From Promineifilum sp. (GTDB lineage: Bacteria; Chloroflexota; Anaerolineae; Promineifilales; Promineifilaceae), in contig JAGOZU010000010.1 of assembly GCA_018058545.1 (NCBI GenBank), positions 1 through 61,448 of the forward strand: a stretch of DNA of 61,448 nucleotides. Reading direction: 5' to 3'. Shown one piece after another: positions 284 through 6,115 of the stretch. The stretch's first letter is position 1. Each line of letters begins with the position of its first letter. A model generated the notes under the pieces. That model ran no database searches, was not told the DNA's origin, and saw only the letters and a list, made by a program, of their open reading frames with translations. Made by a program: the position numbers and the translations under genes.

Positions 284-2845
284 TTACACGAGCCGTTCGC
301 GGGCCTTGGCGCTCAGATAGTCCATCGTCCAGACCATGATCACGATGGCCCAGATGGCCGTGCCCGCGGCGCTATACTGATTCAGGCTGACCCAGATGCG
401 GAATTGCTGGCCGATGCCGCCGCCGCCGACGAAGCCGATGACCGTAGACATGCGGATATTGATATCCCACTGGTAGATGATGAAGGCCAGGAAGGGCGGG
501 ACAAGCTGCGGGACGATGGCATAGACCAACGACTGCATCCGATTGGCGCCCGCGGCCGTGACCGCCTCGACCGGGCCGGGATTGATCTCCTCGATCGTCT
601 CCGAGAAGAGCTTGCCGAGATTGGGTATATTGTTCAGGGCCAGGGCCAGCACGCCGGCGAACGGCCCCGCACCCACCCACGTGGCGGCGATGAGCACCAG
701 GATCAGCGGCTCAATCGAGCGGGTGAGGTTGAAGAACGTGCGCATCACATAATAGATCGTCCGTCCCGGTTTTGACTCGCCCATGATATTGCGCGCCGCC
801 AGAAAACTGAGCGGGATGGCAAACAGAGAGCCGATGGTCGTGGCCATTAGCGCCATCAGCAAGGTGACGACCGACAATCGGACGACCGTCTTGACCGTAT
901 CGCTGATCTGGAGACGGCCGGCGGCATCGTCATAGGTGATCTCAACCCGAGCCGGTTCGGTCTGCCCTTCCTCCATTAGAACAATGGGGTTGATGGTCGT
1001 CTCCAGCACGATGTTGCCGTCGCTGTCTGTGTCGCAACAATTGGATTTGACGCGCAGGTAGGCGCCGTCGGGCAACAGCCAGCGAATGGAGACCGTGCGG
1101 TTGGGCGGCAGGCCGGAGCCGGTGATGGTCAGCGGATCGCCGGGTTCACCGCAGGCGGCCGACAACGTGATGCCCGCATCGCCCGGCGTCGACGGCTCGG
1201 CCGCGTTGCAGGGCACGACGAGTGGCGCGCTAATGGCCGTGGTGGCCGTCGGCCGGGTGACGAGGTCGGGGATGGCGAACTCTCGCGCCAGCGCCAGCCC
1301 TTTGGGCGCGCCGCGCACCAGCTCAATCAGCTGGATTTGTGCTACCTGCCAGGACCAGGCAAACATGGCCAGAAATCCGCCGATGATGAGGAAGCGCAGG
1401 ATGGCCCGCACCGGCGGGCTGCGATGGCTGATGATCGGCCGCCCCTGGATGATGCGCTCCCGCAGCCAGCTGGAGACGAAATCCAGCACGGCGACGACGA
1501 TGACGATGGCGATGATGGCCGTGGCCATGGCCGAGAAACGATTCAGCCGCACCCACTGGATGACCAGGAAGCCCAGGCCGGCGTCGCTTACCAGACCGAT
1601 GACCGTCGAAAGTCGCACATTGATGTCAAAGCGATAGAGCGTAAACGAGGTGAATGTGGGCAAAATCTGGGGCAGGACGGCGTAGACGACCATTTGCGGC
1701 CAGCTCGCGCCCGTAGCTCGCAGCGCTTCGATGGGGCCGGGATCGATGCTCTCGATGGCCTCCGAATACAGCTTGGCCAGCGCGGCCACCGTATGGAACC
1801 ACAGCGCCAGCGTGCCCGCAAAAGGCCCCAACCCCACCCAGACGGCGAAAATAATGGCCCAGATAAGCGTCTCGATGGAGCGAATGATATTGAGGATCGC
1901 TCGCACGACGTTATAAATAACGAGCGTGATGCGGCTGCCTCCCATCAGGTTGCGCGCCGCCAAAAAGCTGACCGGCACGGCGAAGATGACACCCATCACC
2001 GTGGACAGAAATGCCAGCGCCAGTGTCTCGCCGATTTTCTCAATCACCAGCGACAGCGTCTGAGTGGGCTGCATGCCGCCGGAGGCGATGCTCTGCACGG
2101 CGCGAACCCCGTGGGTGAGGCTCATACCGGTGGTCGGCTTGTCGGTGAGAGGCACTGCCTGGGGGACGCGCAAGGTGGCCTCAAAGCGGCCGTTCTCGTC
2201 GGCCACAAACAGCACCTGCTCGCCATCCAGAAAAGCCCGGAGCGGCGTGCCCAACGGATCGACCCACTGAACCTGACCCGATTCGCCCGGCTCAAAACCC
2301 TCGCCCGTGATCGTCAGCAGGTCGCCAACTTCGGCGCAGGGGCTGCTCAATGTGAGGGCGGGCGATACCGTGGGCCGGCGATTCGGCTCCGGCAACGGAT
2401 CGACGCAGGGAACCATGATCGGCGTCACGCCGACGAATTCCGTCGTGGGTTGCTCGAACAGTTCAGGATTGAACAACGAGCGCAAATAAGGCTGGACGTT
2501 GGGCAAGCCGGTGATCAGACGCCCCGGCCGAACGTCGGTCACCAGTGTGGCCGCGCCATAAAGGACGATGCCGATCAGCAGCAATGACGTTCCCCATCCC
2601 TGTTGCCTGCCCTTGGCAAGTCGGTAGGCATCCCGCGCCCCCCAGACCAGCAACAGCAGCAGCGGGATCAGCAGGACATAGGCTTTCGTCCATAGCACCA
2701 GCGCCAGGAGCAGGAAGAAGGTGATGAAGAGGACGAAGCCCCTTGACTTGTGGTGGACGATGAACTGGCCGCCCCCCGGAACGATCAGCGAGAGGATGGC
2801 CGGCAGCCAGGGATTCCGGTGGGGCTGGTGGGTATCAGGCGCCAT
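284..2845 (-). CDS. phnE: Double-length phosphonate-type ABC permease PhnE with Ig-like inserts
   Basis: At 853 residues this is about three times a normal PhnE (about 260). It is an internal duplication. Unit 1 has N-terminal membrane helices (13-104), a typical PhnE loop motif (RLITGLPNVQ, 109-118), an IPT/TIG-like beta domain (about 159-230, with LLTITGEGFEPGE) and a permease core (about 265-465) carrying the EAA-type loop EALRATGA (373-380). Unit 2 repeats the plan: helix 482-502, a second TIG-like domain (about 557-640, PLTITGSGLPPN), and a core (about 650-850) with EAVTAAGA. Both cores contain SFLAARN and RLSTVIG/RMSTVIG. The inserts fall in the loop expected outside the membrane. It overlaps phnC by 11 bases, so the permease dimer is presumably encoded as one chain for the PhnC/PhnD importer. 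Phosphonate versus phosphite or another organophosphorus ligand cannot be decided. Confidence 0.88.
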   Translation of the reverse strand: MAPDTHQPHRNPWLPAILSLIVPGGGQFIVHHKSRGFVLFITFFLLLALVLWTKAYVLLIPLLLLLVWGARDAYRLAKGRQQGWGTSLLLIGIVLYGAATLVTDVRPGRLITGLPNVQPYLRSLFNPELFEQPTTEFVGVTPIMVPCVDPLPEPNRRPTVSPALTLSSPCAEVGDLLTITGEGFEPGESGQVQWVDPLGTPLRAFLDGEQVLFVADENGRFEATLRVPQAVPLTDKPTTGMSLTHGVRAVQSIASGGMQPTQTLSLVIEKIGETLALAFLSTVMGVIFAVPVSFLAARNLMGGSRITLVIYNVVRAILNIIRSIETLIWAIIFAVWVGLGPFAGTLALWFHTVAALAKLYSEAIESIDPGPIEALRATGASWPQMVVYAVLPQILPTFTSFTLYRFDINVRLSTVIGLVSDAGLGFLVIQWVRLNRFSAMATAIIAIVIVVAVLDFVSSWLRERIIQGRPIISHRSPPVRAILRFLIIGGFLAMFAWSWQVAQIQLIELVRGAPKGLALAREFAIPDLVTRPTATTAISAPLVVPCNAAEPSTPGDAGITLSAACGEPGDPLTITGSGLPPNRTVSIRWLLPDGAYLRVKSNCCDTDSDGNIVLETTINPIVLMEEGQTEPARVEITYDDAAGRLQISDTVKTVVRLSVVTLLMALMATTIGSLFAIPLSFLAARNIMGESKPGRTIYYVMRTFFNLTRSIEPLILVLIAATWVGAGPFAGVLALALNNIPNLGKLFSETIEEINPGPVEAVTAAGANRMQSLVYAIVPQLVPPFLAFIIYQWDINIRMSTVIGFVGGGGIGQQFRIWVSLNQYSAAGTAIWAIVIMVWTMDYLSAKARERLV

Positions 2846-3608
2846 TATGAGGTGTAATCGAGACCATCTCCGCCTCTTCGCCGTACACCTCTTTGAATTT
2901 CTCAGGCGTCAACTCGGACGGCAGACCATCGAAGACAAGCTCGCCGTCTTTCAGACCGACGACCCGACCGGCGTACCGGTGCACAAGGTCCAGAAAGTGC
3001 AGACTGCATAAGACGGTGATGTTATCCTGCTGATTCAATAACTCGAGATATCCCAAAATGGAGTGCGACAGGACGGGGTCCAGGCTGGCGACCGGTTCAT
3101 CGGCCAGCAATAGCTGGGGGTCCTGCATCAGGGCGCGGGCGATGCCGACGCGCTGCTGCTGGCCACCGGAGAGCTGATCGGCGCGATTGTCGGCCTTGTC
3201 GGGGATCCCGACGCGCTCCAGAGCGGCCACCGCCCGCCGGCGATCCTCAGCCGTAAAGCGGCCGAAAAGGCTCCAGACCGGGTGGGCATATCCCAGCCGC
3301 CCCGACAGGACATTCGTCATGACGCTGCTGCGCTTCACCAGATTGAAATGCTGGAAGATCATGCCGATCTGCCGTCGTATCTGCCGCAGTTCGGCCCCTT
3401 GCGCGGCGGTGATATTTTGATCGTTCCAGTAAACGGTCCCCGAGGTGGGGTCGATGAGGCGATTGATGCAGCGCAGGAGGGTGGATTTGCCGGAACCGGA
3501 CAGGCCGATGATGGCCAGAAATTCACCGTCCTGAACCTCAAAGCTGACGTCCTTGAGGGCGACGGTTCCGTCCGGAAATACTTTGGTCAGGTTTTGAATC
3601 CGAAGCAC
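2835..3608 (-). CDS. phnC: Phosphonate-type ABC transporter ATP-binding protein
   Basis: A 257-residue ABC ATPase energising import with PhnE and PhnD. It shows Walker A GLSGSGKS (35-42), Q-loop Q86, signature [15 protein letters not shown] (from 147), Walker B LLLADE (167-172) and H-loop H204. The segment [18 protein letters not shown] is typical of PhnC-type ATPases. The start is GTG at 3608, supported by AAAGGAG just upstream; no better ATG lies near. It sits 88 bases after phnD and overlaps phnE by 11 bases, so translation is probably coupled. No phosphonate C-P lyase gene follows in the window, so the fate of the imported substrate is not visible. Confidence 0.92.
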
Positions 3609-3696: not shown

Positions 3697-4596
3697 TTAC
3701 TTGGCCAAATCTTCGATATTGATGCCCGCGCGGCTCAGGTCGGCGCGGAATACATCATAGAACGAGTCGCTGGACTCAACCAGGCTCTCGATATTGTAAA
3801 GCGTGTTGAGTGCTTCCTGCCCTTCGGGCGAAGCGGAGATATCGAGCAGGGCGGCGACGACTTTGGTGCGCATCTCTGCCGGGAAGTCCTTGATGAAGGA
3901 CACGCTGTCGTTGGGGATGTCGCTGGTGGTGGCCAGGACGACGACCTTCTCCAGCACATCGGGGAACTCTTCCTCGATGCCGGTACGAGCATCGGAGAAC
4001 GTCGCGCCCGCGTCGCAATCGCCATTGTAGACTTGCGTCACAACGTTGTTGTGCGACCCGGCCTCGATGGTCTGGCTGAAGTCCGTATCGGGATTGATAC
4101 CGTTGGCGGACAGCATGATGCGCGGGATGATATAACCGGAGGTCGAGGCGGGATCGACCCAGCACATGACCTTGCCGCGCAGATCTTCAAGCGTCGCAAT
4201 GCCGCTGTCAGCGCGGACGATGATCTGGCCGGCATAGGTGCTCGACCCGAAACGGGACGTCGCCAGCGCGGCATCGACGCCGCACTGCTCGTTGGCCAGC
4301 ACGTAGTTGAACGTGTTCAGCCAGCCGATTTGAGCCTGACCGGCGCACATCGCCTCGCGAACGGACGAGAAGTCCGTGCCGACGTTGGATTTAACGGTGA
4401 GGCCGGTGCGGTCGGTGATCATTTTCGCCAGGGTGTCGCCGCTGGCGATGATGTCCTGCGTGTCGCCCGAGGGCACAAAGGACATGATGATGGGATTCTC
4501 GGCCGTGCCCAAGTCGGGTTTGCCGCCACAGGCGGCCAGAGCCAGGCCAAGCAAGGATACCATCCCAAACAGCAAAACAATCTTACGGACGTTCAT
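3697..4596 (-). CDS. phnD: Phosphonate-type ABC transporter substrate-binding lipoprotein
   Basis: A 299-residue PhnD-family binding protein delivering ligand to PhnCE. It has a lipoprotein signal with lipobox ending at C23 (LALAAC), then the PhnD-like start of the mature domain (IIMSFVPSGD) and later WVDPASTSGYIIPRIML, a characteristic PhnD hinge and ligand-loop segment. An in-frame longer reading exists to 4641, but the ATG at 4596 has a strong GGAGGAGG ribosome site nine bases upstream, so this start is preferred. It is the first gene of the phnDCE operon and has its own promoter and a leader of about 100 bases containing a terminator hairpin (separate entries). Confidence 0.92.
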   Translation of the reverse strand: MNVRKIVLLFGMVSLLGLALAACGGKPDLGTAENPIIMSFVPSGDTQDIIASGDTLAKMITDRTGLTVKSNVGTDFSSVREAMCAGQAQIGWLNTFNYVLANEQCGVDAALATSRFGSSTYAGQIIVRADSGIATLEDLRGKVMCWVDPASTSGYIIPRIMLSANGINPDTDFSQTIEAGSHNNVVTQVYNGDCDAGATFSDARTGIEEEFPDVLEKVVVLATTSDIPNDSVSFIKDFPAEMRTKVVAALLDISASPEGQEALNTLYNIESLVESSDSFYDVFRADLSRAGINIEDLAK

Positions 4597-4639
4597 TCTT
4601 GAAAACCTCCTCCACATGAATGGGTTGGAAAGGGACATC

Positions 4640-4660
4640 AAAAAAGGCGCTTGCGCCTTT
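4640..4660 (-). terminator. Intrinsic terminator inside the phnD leader
   Basis: On the minus strand AAAGGCG-CAAG-CGCCTTT is followed directly by further T residues (six in a row). It lies between the phnD promoter (4703-4731) and the phnD start codon (4596), so it can act as an attenuator as well as the terminator of the upstream phosphatase gene. Confidence 0.6.
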
Positions 4661-4772: not shown

Positions 4773-5396
4773 TCAACCGTTGTGCCAGGGCACGCGATAC
4801 CGGAACCCGACGAGGCCCCCGCTATCCCCCTCGGCAAAAGTGAAGGTGGCGATGGACGCCGGAGAGGGGTAGCCTTCGGGCACGCCACACTGAACCAGGC
4901 GCTTGCGCTGCTCGGCCGACGGAGCGAGGCCACAAGCCCACATAATGGCAAAGGCGATCGGGTCGGCGTGACTGACGCCGACGACATGCCCGCCGGGATG
5001 ACGCTCGCGCGCCCGATCGAAAAAGCGGATGATGCGATCCAGTATCTGTTCCGGCTGTTCGTAGGGCGGGTCGACGGTGCTGTAGAAATCCCAGTTGCGC
5101 CCCTCCATCTCCGCGGCCGTGCGGCCGTCATAGGATGAGTGGATCTCGTTCAGGAGATCGCAACTCTGTAGCGGCGTATCGGCGGGCAGGTAAGCGCAGA
5201 TGATCCCGGCCGTCTCGGCCGCGCGCTGCATCGGGCTGTGATACACAGCATCGACCGGCTCCAGTGCCAGGGCCCGTCCGGCGGCCGCCGCCTGCTCGCG
5301 ACCCGTCTCGGCCAACCCGAAGCCGGGCAGGCGTCCATAATAGACGCCATCGGGATTGTGAACCAATCCGTGGCGTACCAGCGATATTTTGGTCAT
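4773..5396 (-). CDS. Histidine phosphatase family protein (phosphoglycerate-mutase-like)
   Basis: A 207-residue member of histidine phosphatase branch 1. The phospho-accepting RHG motif is at R8-H9-G10, a conserved acidic segment is LLNEIHSS, and the second catalytic histidine is in VGVSHADPI. Such enzymes remove phosphate from small metabolites (sugar phosphates, nucleotides, cobalamin intermediates); the actual substrate cannot be read from sequence. The ATG at 5396 is preferred over a TTG two codons upstream. It lies between the response regulator and phnD on the same strand, which fits a link to phosphate metabolism but does not prove one. Confidence 0.8.
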   Translation of the reverse strand: MTKISLVRHGLVHNPDGVYYGRLPGFGLAETGREQAAAAGRALALEPVDAVYHSPMQRAAETAGIICAYLPADTPLQSCDLLNEIHSSYDGRTAAEMEGRNWDFYSTVDPPYEQPEQILDRIIRFFDRARERHPGGHVVGVSHADPIAFAIMWACGLAPSAEQRKRLVQCGVPEGYPSPASIATFTFAEGDSGGLVGFRYRVPWHNG

Positions 5397-5428
5397 AGGC
5401 AAACTATCCTGTATTTTGACCGACGATA

Positions 5429-6115
5429 TTACGCTTCACGCAGGCTCAGCTTGTAGCCGCGACCCCAGACCGTCTCGATTTCCACCCCGCTACCGTCCAG
5501 CCGATCGCGCAACTGAGCCACGTGAACATCGACCGTGCGCGTCTGCCCGTGGTATTCATAGCCCCAGGCCAGATCGAGCAACTGATCGCGCGAGAGGACC
5601 TGGTTGGGATGATCGGCCAGCGCCAGCAGCAGGTCGAACTCTCTGGCCCGCAGGGTGATGGGCGCGCCGTCGACGGCCACCTCGCGGGCGGCCGGGTCGA
5701 TGGTGAGGCGACCGATGTGGCGCTGTCGGTCCTGGCCGGAGCGGCCGCCGCCGCCGGCTCGCCTCAGGATGGCCCGCACCCGCGCCACCAGTTCGCGCGG
5801 GTTGAAGGGCTTGGTGAGGTAGTCGTCGGCCCCCATCTCCAGGGCGACGATTTTGTCGATATCCTGGTCACGGGCGGTCAGGATAAGGATCGGCAGGTCG
5901 CTGCGGGCGCGCAGCCGCCGGCAGACCTCCCAGCCGTCCATCTCCGGCATCATGAGGTCGAGGACGAGCAGGGCGGGCGAGTCACTCTCCGCCTGGGCCA
6001 GCGCCTCCGCCCCGTTCACGGCCATGCGCACCTGGAAGCCCTCTTTCTCCAGATAGAGCCGGGCCAAGTCGCGGATGCTGGCCTCGTCGTCGGCCACGAG
6101 AATGGTATCAGCCAT
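5429..6115 (-). CDS. OmpR/PhoB-family response regulator
   Basis: 228 residues: receiver domain (1-118) with acidic pocket D9/D10, phospho-acceptor D53 in LVLDLMMPEMDGW, T80 in ILILTARD and K102 in YLTKPF; a Gly/Arg-rich linker (RRAGGGGRSGQDRQ); and a C-terminal winged-helix DNA-binding domain (about 130-228) ending VWGRGYKLS. It is expected to be phosphorylated by a histidine kinase and to bind promoters. No kinase gene is adjacent. The nearest candidate is the truncated gene at the left edge, on the far side of phnDCE. The downstream phosphatase starts 32 bases after its stop. Confidence 0.93.
   Translation of the reverse strand: MADTILVADDEASIRDLARLYLEKEGFQVRMAVNGAEALAQAESDSPALLVLDLMMPEMDGWEVCRRLRARSDLPILILTARDQDIDKIVALEMGADDYLTKPFNPRELVARVRAILRRAGGGGRSGQDRQRHIGRLTIDPAAREVAVDGAPITLRAREFDLLLALADHPNQVLSRDQLLDLAWGYEYHGQTRTVDVHVAQLRDRLDGSGVEIETVWGRGYKLSLREA

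Follow-up and report, generated by a model that had tools for sequence, protein, structure and literature searches.

A fused tandem PhnE permease of Promineifilum with an Ig-like domain in each half, and the possible role of these domains in docking PhnD

Why should a phosphonate-type permease carry a beta domain in each of its halves? The question is raised by phnE, a gene in a 61,448-nucleotide stretch of Promineifilum sp. (contig JAGOZU010000010.1 of assembly GCA_018058545.1, phylum Chloroflexota; this whole stretch is called the window), which encodes a fused tandem permease. An earlier note on this DNA had located the gene at positions 284-2845 and described its product as a duplicated unit of helix, loop, TIG-like domain and permease core; the open reading frame (ORF) is real, and the present analysis specifies that it lies on the minus strand. 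Each half was found to contain an Ig-like insert of about 110-120 residues between the first core helix and the permease core, and sequence and structural models support an extracytoplasmic position for both. That these inserts act as a pair of arms, with one on each half, for docking the lipoprotein PhnD is a proposal to which we give about an even chance. The architecture itself is an uncommon yet widely shared variant of a known transporter, and no new kind of system.

The duplication was borne out by a comparison of the two halves, which are identical at 143 of 358 residues (40%, E 1e-72) in an alignment spanning the insert as well as the core. The whole protein scored 471.5 bits with the PhnE model TIGR01097, and the halves taken singly scored 248.9 and 228.7 bits, both exceeding the cut-off of 216.7. 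The core is that of MetI-like type I ATP-binding cassette (ABC) importers (MetI: Z 19.7, 204 residues, 2.6 Å). The top structural match across both halves is the FbpB-type fused permease of a ferric importer (9j4r_A; Z 21.7, 429 residues, root-mean-square deviation 5.1), which is a shorter chain of 490 residues; we take FbpB to be itself a tandem of two halves, which fits an alignment running across both halves of PhnE. By sequence, PhnE matched four solved chains at E<=1, all of them other importers, with MetI the best. Judged by these comparisons, the protein is a genuine PhnE permease, predicted to carry in a single chain the two membrane-spanning halves found in type I ABC importers. It shares with the PhnE/PtxC permeases (TIGR01097) the core, the EAA-type loops, the phnC and phnD partners and the family score of each half, and differs from them in the fusion of the halves, in the Ig-like domain placed in each loop between the first transmembrane helix (TM1) and the core, and in extra N-terminal helices in half 1. 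It is the sole PhnE above the TIGR01097 cut-off in the window's genome. The same tandem protein was also found in 7/7 further genomes searched within the genus, in six at 77-84% identity over near-full length and in one as a fragment.

Structure prediction of PhnE alone returned the beta-sandwich fold in both of the places named in the earlier note. AlphaFold2 modelled the full-length protein, from 64 aligned proteins, with a mean predicted local distance difference test (pLDDT) score of 89.3 and a predicted template modelling (pTM) score of 0.75, with strands within residues 134-254 and 533-641 and helices elsewhere; insert 1 alone (residues 126-260, with 79 aligned inserts) reached 93.2 and 0.83, respectively. 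The nearest solved folds of the isolated insert are neocarzinostatin-like (Z 7.4 and 7.3, 82 residues, 2.5-2.6 Å), a modest match at a level of Z that is common. Foldseek gave no match below E 0.001 for the isolated insert, which is therefore described as Ig-like, without a close solved relative having been found. The Ig-like sandwich is shared with the neocarzinostatin-type (enediyne chromoprotein) apoproteins and with bacterial Ig-like repeats; the neocarzinostatin-type proteins are secreted single-domain proteins, whereas here the domain is a loop insert in a permease.

The TIG part of the earlier description proved loose. Pfam TIG (PF01833) matched insert 1 only, over 24 residues, with 15.4 bits against a cut-off of 20.9, and PF00960 (Neocarzinostatin) did not match the window's insert 1. 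Among the 79 aligned inserts, of which 64 are first or only inserts and the others 15 of 24 second ones, weak matches were seen to PF00960 (3/79 at E<=1, best 6e-4), TIG (4/79 at E<=1, best 0.093), chromo_anti (10/79, best 0.0017) and GxPGS_dom (11/79). Naming the insert as TIG, neocarzinostatin or another family was rejected, as none of the matches seen came up to a curated cut-off. Kinship with CD276 was also dropped: the insert profile matched the chain at E 9e-6 and its single domains at 0.5 and 1.5, and the match is read as Ig-like only. Position Gly219 is conserved in all 79 inserts and Trp194 in 76. The cysteine pair (147/170 in insert 1) is complete in 77 inserts, fully absent from two and never represented by one cysteine alone, a pattern as expected of a disulfide. 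The inserts of two spirochaete loci, L092 and L114 (loci of relatives are given L numbers), have no cysteine pair.

On which side of the membrane these domains lie was judged from 24 fused proteins. Lysine and arginine (K+R) account for 7.0% of residues in both inserts, 28.1% in the linker between the halves and 36.5% at the C-terminus. The EAA loops, which face the ATPase in the cytoplasm, are as poor in K+R as the inserts (6.1% and 5.0%). The charge rule is thus not clean, and low K+R taken alone would be compatible with cytosolic inserts. For this reason the topology was fixed by the K+R-rich segments that flank TM1 and TM7. Such segments lie across each flanking helix, and together with the cysteine pairs and the topology of the MetI-like permease fold they place the inserts outside the cell, as had been claimed; the high pLDDT further speaks for folded domains. 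With this evidence, and not with the low K+R of the inserts by itself, a cytosolic location was discarded, and we regard it, like the view that the inserts are not folded domains, as scarcely credible. Of the two results that the earlier note had named as refuting it, beta domains in the cytosol and the lack of a beta-sandwich, neither was obtained.

The site of insertion is the same in both halves. In the AlphaFold2 model, 7 residues lead from the last insert strand to the core helix (254 to 262 and 641 to 649). This spacing is used in preference to the distance of 4-8 residues from the insert profile to the core obtained for 117 of 120 modules, since that figure is largely set by the cut of the profile at residue 260. 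That canonical PhnE has only a short loop here was confirmed by 13 ORFs (one of Acinetobacter, L120, and 12 of Chloroflexota, L121-L126) with a total of 70-80 residues ahead of the core, a count that includes TM1; in the window's PhnE, 184 residues separate the two cores.

The best known case of an external folded domain in a type I ABC importer permease is MalF P2. This loop reportedly interacts with MalE and signals to MalK, and is itself Ig-like. In both MalF and PhnE a folded external domain stands immediately ahead of the conserved core, and extra N-terminal helices are present in both; MalF brings one such domain to its transporter, whereas two are present here. In the structural alignment with MalF (9nxc_H; Z 13.3, 207 aligned residues, 3.4 Å), residues 121-465 of the model correspond to MalF 260-511, these being end points only, which bracket insert 1. 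P2 comprises residues 91-271 of MalF, with one segment in direct contact with MalE (PMC3150292).

The distribution of the architecture was studied in 80 loci of the genome_contigs collection, the best of at least 522 confirmed relatives, chosen by likeness to the fused PhnE. Thirty-eight have a single phnE gene, 19 have two and 23 have a fused gene; six of the single-gene loci (L074, L078, L090, L099, L107 and L113) have less than 1.2 kb downstream, so that a second gene may have been cut off. The two genes lie within 50 bases of each other or overlap, as called, in 16 of the 19 two-gene loci, are 270 bases apart in L076 and L081, and are farther apart in L104 and L091. A phnC gene is found upstream in 77/80 loci, a phnD-like ORF in 66/80 and the order phnD-phnC-phnE in 65/80, a count that includes L117 by hand, its PhnE ORF having been called too long. 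The number of inserts equals the number of cores in 97 of 99 PhnE ORFs, the exceptions being the first ORF of L064 (324 aa) and the PhnE of L110, cut by a contig end; because of the selection by likeness, these numbers do not measure a frequency. Six loci are labelled Spirochaetota (L082, L092, L093, L103, L111 and L114), one Actinomycetes (L102) and the rest Chloroflexota. The search in other Chloroflexota that the earlier note had proposed therefore found the same architecture, and more widely than expected, in split and single-copy forms and in Spirochaetota. In the phylum as a whole, the insert profile matched 26 of 301 genomes at 45 bits or more, 23 of them among the 38 genomes of the window's class (its own included), and these matches are located in or just beside PhnE matches. 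At E<=0.001, matches were obtained in 172/301 genomes, mostly weaker and in other ORFs. Two ORFs with insert-profile matches, L182:202-1713 (two domains, lipoprotein-like) and L183:720-2789 (five domains, a C-terminal membrane helix), have a signal-like N-terminus, and secreted Ig-like domains may form a pool from which the PhnE insert was taken.

On a tree of the core only, the first halves, L065 excepted, group in one clade (12 rows, support 100) and the second halves in another (12 rows, 99); the second halves join phnE2 (28 rows, 97), and the first halves join phnE1 with the weaker support of 88. A larger tree agrees (F1, 17 rows, 100; F2, 17 rows, 99; F2 with E2, 43 rows, 97, including one half of L149). 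Both trees are quick ones; the larger omits 25 locus identifiers (truncated, duplicate or odd), all fused proteins but 18 listed ones, and 16 of the 48 single rows, and labels by length the downstream genes of L088 and L117 as E1, a label corrected in a second tree of 75 hand-chosen rows. The topologies fit one duplication of an insert-bearing phnE followed by fusion. Because the root was not inferred, the order from single gene to pair to fusion is given as the simplest reading. The L065/L013 fusion stands apart on long branches in the larger tree; a tree that keeps the 13 first halves in one group was not rejected (p-AU 0.60), and a separate origin of this fusion is for that reason not concluded.

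How could such domains serve a transporter? One domain per core is found in the single, paired and fused forms, which would give two per transporter if single-copy PhnE forms a homodimer. The two domains would flank the mouth of the pore as arms that receive the lipid-anchored PhnD, each arm steadying one of its lobes, and, once PhnD has arrived, might relay this to the second core helix, whose modelled start is 7 residues past the last strand. A PhnD held close to the membrane would need to be presented to the pore mouth, and external domains on either side would be well placed for this. Their action would resemble that of MalF P2, in a duplicated and independently acquired form.

Contact of the inserts with PhnD, which the earlier note had suggested, is plausible from the MalF P2 site and from PhnD being mostly a lipoprotein, often with a short linker; the evidence from co-divergence is mixed. 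Of the PhnD ORFs with complete 5' ends, 57 of 61 from outside the spirochaetes and 1 of 5 from spirochaetes have a lipobox by a rule widened after inspection (narrower, misplaced windows had given 40/70 and 42/66). The linker from lipobox to domain in the 58 lipobox-bearing proteins is 2-8 residues long in 40 and 19-54 in 18. The spirochaete PhnD proteins beside insert-bearing PhnE mostly have no lipobox (L082, L092, L103, L111, L114), and that of L093 has one. Co-divergence was computed for the 62 of 80 loci with usable PhnD, PhnC and PhnE regions; a subset designed to drop outlying PhnD removed none. Distances of insert 1 correlate with those of PhnD at 0.75, compared with 0.64 for the core and 0.56 for the N-terminal region, and the partial correlation, with core, PhnC and N-terminal region held constant, is 0.53 for the insert and 0.22 for the N-terminal control. 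The split-pair subset is the only one with a clear difference (0.34 for the insert, -0.17 for the control).

Several results weigh against a docking role. In the fused subset the insert reaches 0.22 with PhnD and the N-terminal control 0.17 (0.27 and 0.33 by ranks), and in the single subset 0.34 and 0.30. The insert also tracks PhnC, on the opposite side of the membrane, at 0.36 in all loci; in the fused ones it does so at 0.45, above the value for PhnD there. Co-divergence was consequently not accepted as proof of contact and is retained as weak support. MalF is not among the solved matches listed for the isolated insert; this is no proof of absence, and P2 is not claimed as its homologue. 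The insert sequence diverges fast (mean distance 1.53, compared with 0.49 for the core). Fourteen loci have no phnD-like ORF; nine of them begin too near, and five (L079, L085, L086, L095 and L099) have an insert-bearing PhnE with phnC upstream and room for phnD, and their binding protein may be encoded elsewhere or be of another kind. Finally, 43 of 51 Chloroflexota PhnE ORFs, in a sample chosen to contain such cases, have no insert match, although two of them (L141, L142) are merely clipped, the insert being present in the fuller L175 and L174. The 40 regions concerned were hand-chosen, mostly as insert-free, and give loop lengths and not frequencies. With many PhnE of the same phylum lacking them, the inserts are not needed for transport as such.

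As the co-divergence advantage nearly vanishes in the fused and single subsets, docking is rated as evenly poised, and the role ranked next, itself rather unlikely, is that of spacers or braces which steady the permease dimer at the cell surface, or keep it at a distance from the cell wall, and make no specific contact with PhnD. The fast divergence combined with conserved framework residues (Gly219, Trp194) would suit a scaffold, the mixed co-divergence gives PhnD no special place, and similar Ig-like domains, some in multiple copies as in L182 and L183, occur in other ORFs of the phylum, albeit mostly as weak matches. Bracing accounts less well for an insert that is kept with every core in nearly all PhnE ORFs of the loci picked by likeness, at a site comparable to that of MalF P2. 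The frequent insert-free PhnE in the phylum sample would also agree with a neutral or lineage-specific decoration, acquired once and tolerated without an important function. Neutral cargo is expected to decay, whereas the cysteine pair persists almost throughout the aligned inserts of Chloroflexota and some Spirochaetota, and both copies were retained after duplication; we hold this explanation to be improbable.

The earlier note had also offered the scavenging of ligand at the membrane, for which nothing was found in support. Neocarzinostatin-like folds, the nearest to the insert, can bind small molecules, as seen in solved ligand complexes, and the inserts could in principle capture phosphonate, phosphate or metal-phosphate directly. 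Yet conservation is strongest at framework residues (Pro, Cys, Gly, Trp and one Asp), and the inserts are net acidic (for insert 1, 16.5 Asp plus Glu against 8.8 K+R), which is unfavourable for an anion, and direct capture appears very improbable.

Docking of PhnD thus stands as the leading proposal, and the interest of this transporter lies in a possible second, doubled arrangement of the MalF P2 type and in a preserved series of single, split and fused forms. No description of an insert-bearing PhnE was found among the papers listed from the open-licence literature, judged by titles and the openings of abstracts. A second P2-like case at a comparable site, doubled, in an anion importer and from little-studied phyla, would allow one to ask if domains of this kind are a common solution to the docking of binding proteins, and what difference a short lipid tether on the binding protein makes. 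The three forms in related genomes are a natural series for experiment. A bolder version, which we put forward as doubtful, is that Chloroflexota and Spirochaetota possess a MalF-independent, two-armed docking device gripping both lobes of a mostly short-tethered PhnD, that it passed from homodimer through duplicated pair to fused chain, and that in some relatives it serves chimeric PhnD receptors.

Chimeric receptors were observed beside insert-bearing PhnE in three loci. L106:2383-5037 encodes a fusion of Bmp, SBP_bac_3 and Phosphonate-bd (885 aa), L084:2975-5086 encodes LysM (20.8 bits, cut-off 20.9), Bmp and Phosphonate-bd (704 aa), and L083:1914-3161 combines a weak LysM match with Phosphonate-bd. 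In 201 genomes of the order of genome G160, matches running from SBP_bac_3 into PhnD in one stop-free open frame recur, among the matches listed in G431, G561, G489, G477, G450 and G470; the whole triple of Bmp, SBP_bac_3 and PhnD was seen again, among the matches listed, only in G439, where it is 100% identical.

The substrate was considered in 20 genomes. PhnJ of C-P lyase was found in 0/20, a phosphonatase above cut-off in 0/20 and PstC above cut-off in 17/20. An Acinetobacter protein with the annotation phosphonate dehydrogenase has matches in the window's genome at only 30-35% identity, as expected of ordinary relatives. The best solved sequence relatives of PhnD are named phosphonate- and phosphite-binding proteins, including PtxB and HtxB. 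The window's PhnD exceeds the cut-off of the TIGR01098 subfamily (212 bits) and reaches 145.3 bits with the PhnD equivalog TIGR03431, below its cut-off of 261.1. E. coli PhnCDE is described as able to carry phosphate (PMC6469041), and for the PhnDCE of picocyanobacteria, in strains most of which do not degrade phosphonate or phosphite, a role as phosphate transporter is proposed (PMC10284923). Given these precedents, the presence of Pst, the lack in this genome sample of PhnJ and of phosphonatases above cut-off, and the distance of the dehydrogenases matched in the window's genome, phosphate or phosphite is a reasonable guess.

The coordinates of phnE, its parts and its neighbours are collected in Table 1. 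The genes phnD and phnC lie directly upstream of phnE, the start of which overlaps the end of phnC by 11 bases; the kinase gene follows downstream, and those of the phosphatase and the regulator lie farther upstream. This block is kept in 4/4 close loci (L039-L042) and was mostly not seen elsewhere. Its linkage at genus level to kinase, regulator and phosphatase suggests that the phnE operon may be under phosphate-responsive control.

Table 1. Features of the phnE gene and of its surroundings in the window.
Feature	Positions	Strand	Remarks
Probable sensor kinase, clipped by contig end	2..268	minus	Homology to longer ORFs downstream of phnE in L039-L042; HAMP-kinase-like N-terminus
phnE, fused tandem phosphonate-type permease, 853 aa	284..2845	minus	ATG at 2845; TIGR01097
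Permease core 2, residues 649-853	287..901	minus	
Insert 2, residues 533-641, second Ig-like domain	923..1249	minus	Cys546/Cys565
TM helix of half 2, residues 477-501	1343..1417	minus	Linker before it K+R-rich
Permease core 1, residues 262-467	1445..2062	minus	EAA-type cytoplasmic loop ~369-377
Insert 1, residues 134-254, Ig-like beta-sandwich	2084..2446	minus	Cys147/Cys170
N-terminal region, residues 1-102, with two extra helices (33-53, 56-77; PGxGQ-like motif) followed by TM1 of half 1 (85-102)	2540..2845	minus	AlphaFold2 helices, alignment coverage
phnC, ATPase	2835..3608	minus	TIGR02315 344 bits, cut-off 266.1
phnD, lipoprotein	3697..4641	minus	LAAC lipobox in translation; PF12974 206.9 bits
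Histidine phosphatase family protein, upstream of phnD	4773..5402	minus	
OmpR/PhoB-type response regulator	5429..6115	minus	

Half 1 is not a mere copy of half 2, having about 80 additional N-terminal residues with two predicted membrane helices ahead of TM1. Judged by alignment coverage, these helices are missing from half 2 and from the separate phnE2 proteins. Matches to DUF6677/DUF5683, all under cut-off, were obtained in three of six PhnE relatives scanned (L092, L013 and L061). In the PhnE of L085 (2952-4676), the place of the extra helices is taken by an RDD-family domain at the N-terminus (PF06271, 36.3 bits, cut-off 24.1).

Two further variants of PhnE were observed. L149:869-2929 encodes a tandem PhnE of 687 aa with no Ig-like insert match in either half and with cores 70 residues apart. 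Some Chloroflexota PhnE have a second, hydrophobic insert of about 130-225 aa inside the core after an SFxAARN motif (L174:2507-4324, L175, L176, L178 and L177:2424-3899); in the two that were examined, L174 and L177, it contains several hydrophobic stretches, and in L174, L175, L176 and L178 it occurs together with the Ig-like insert.

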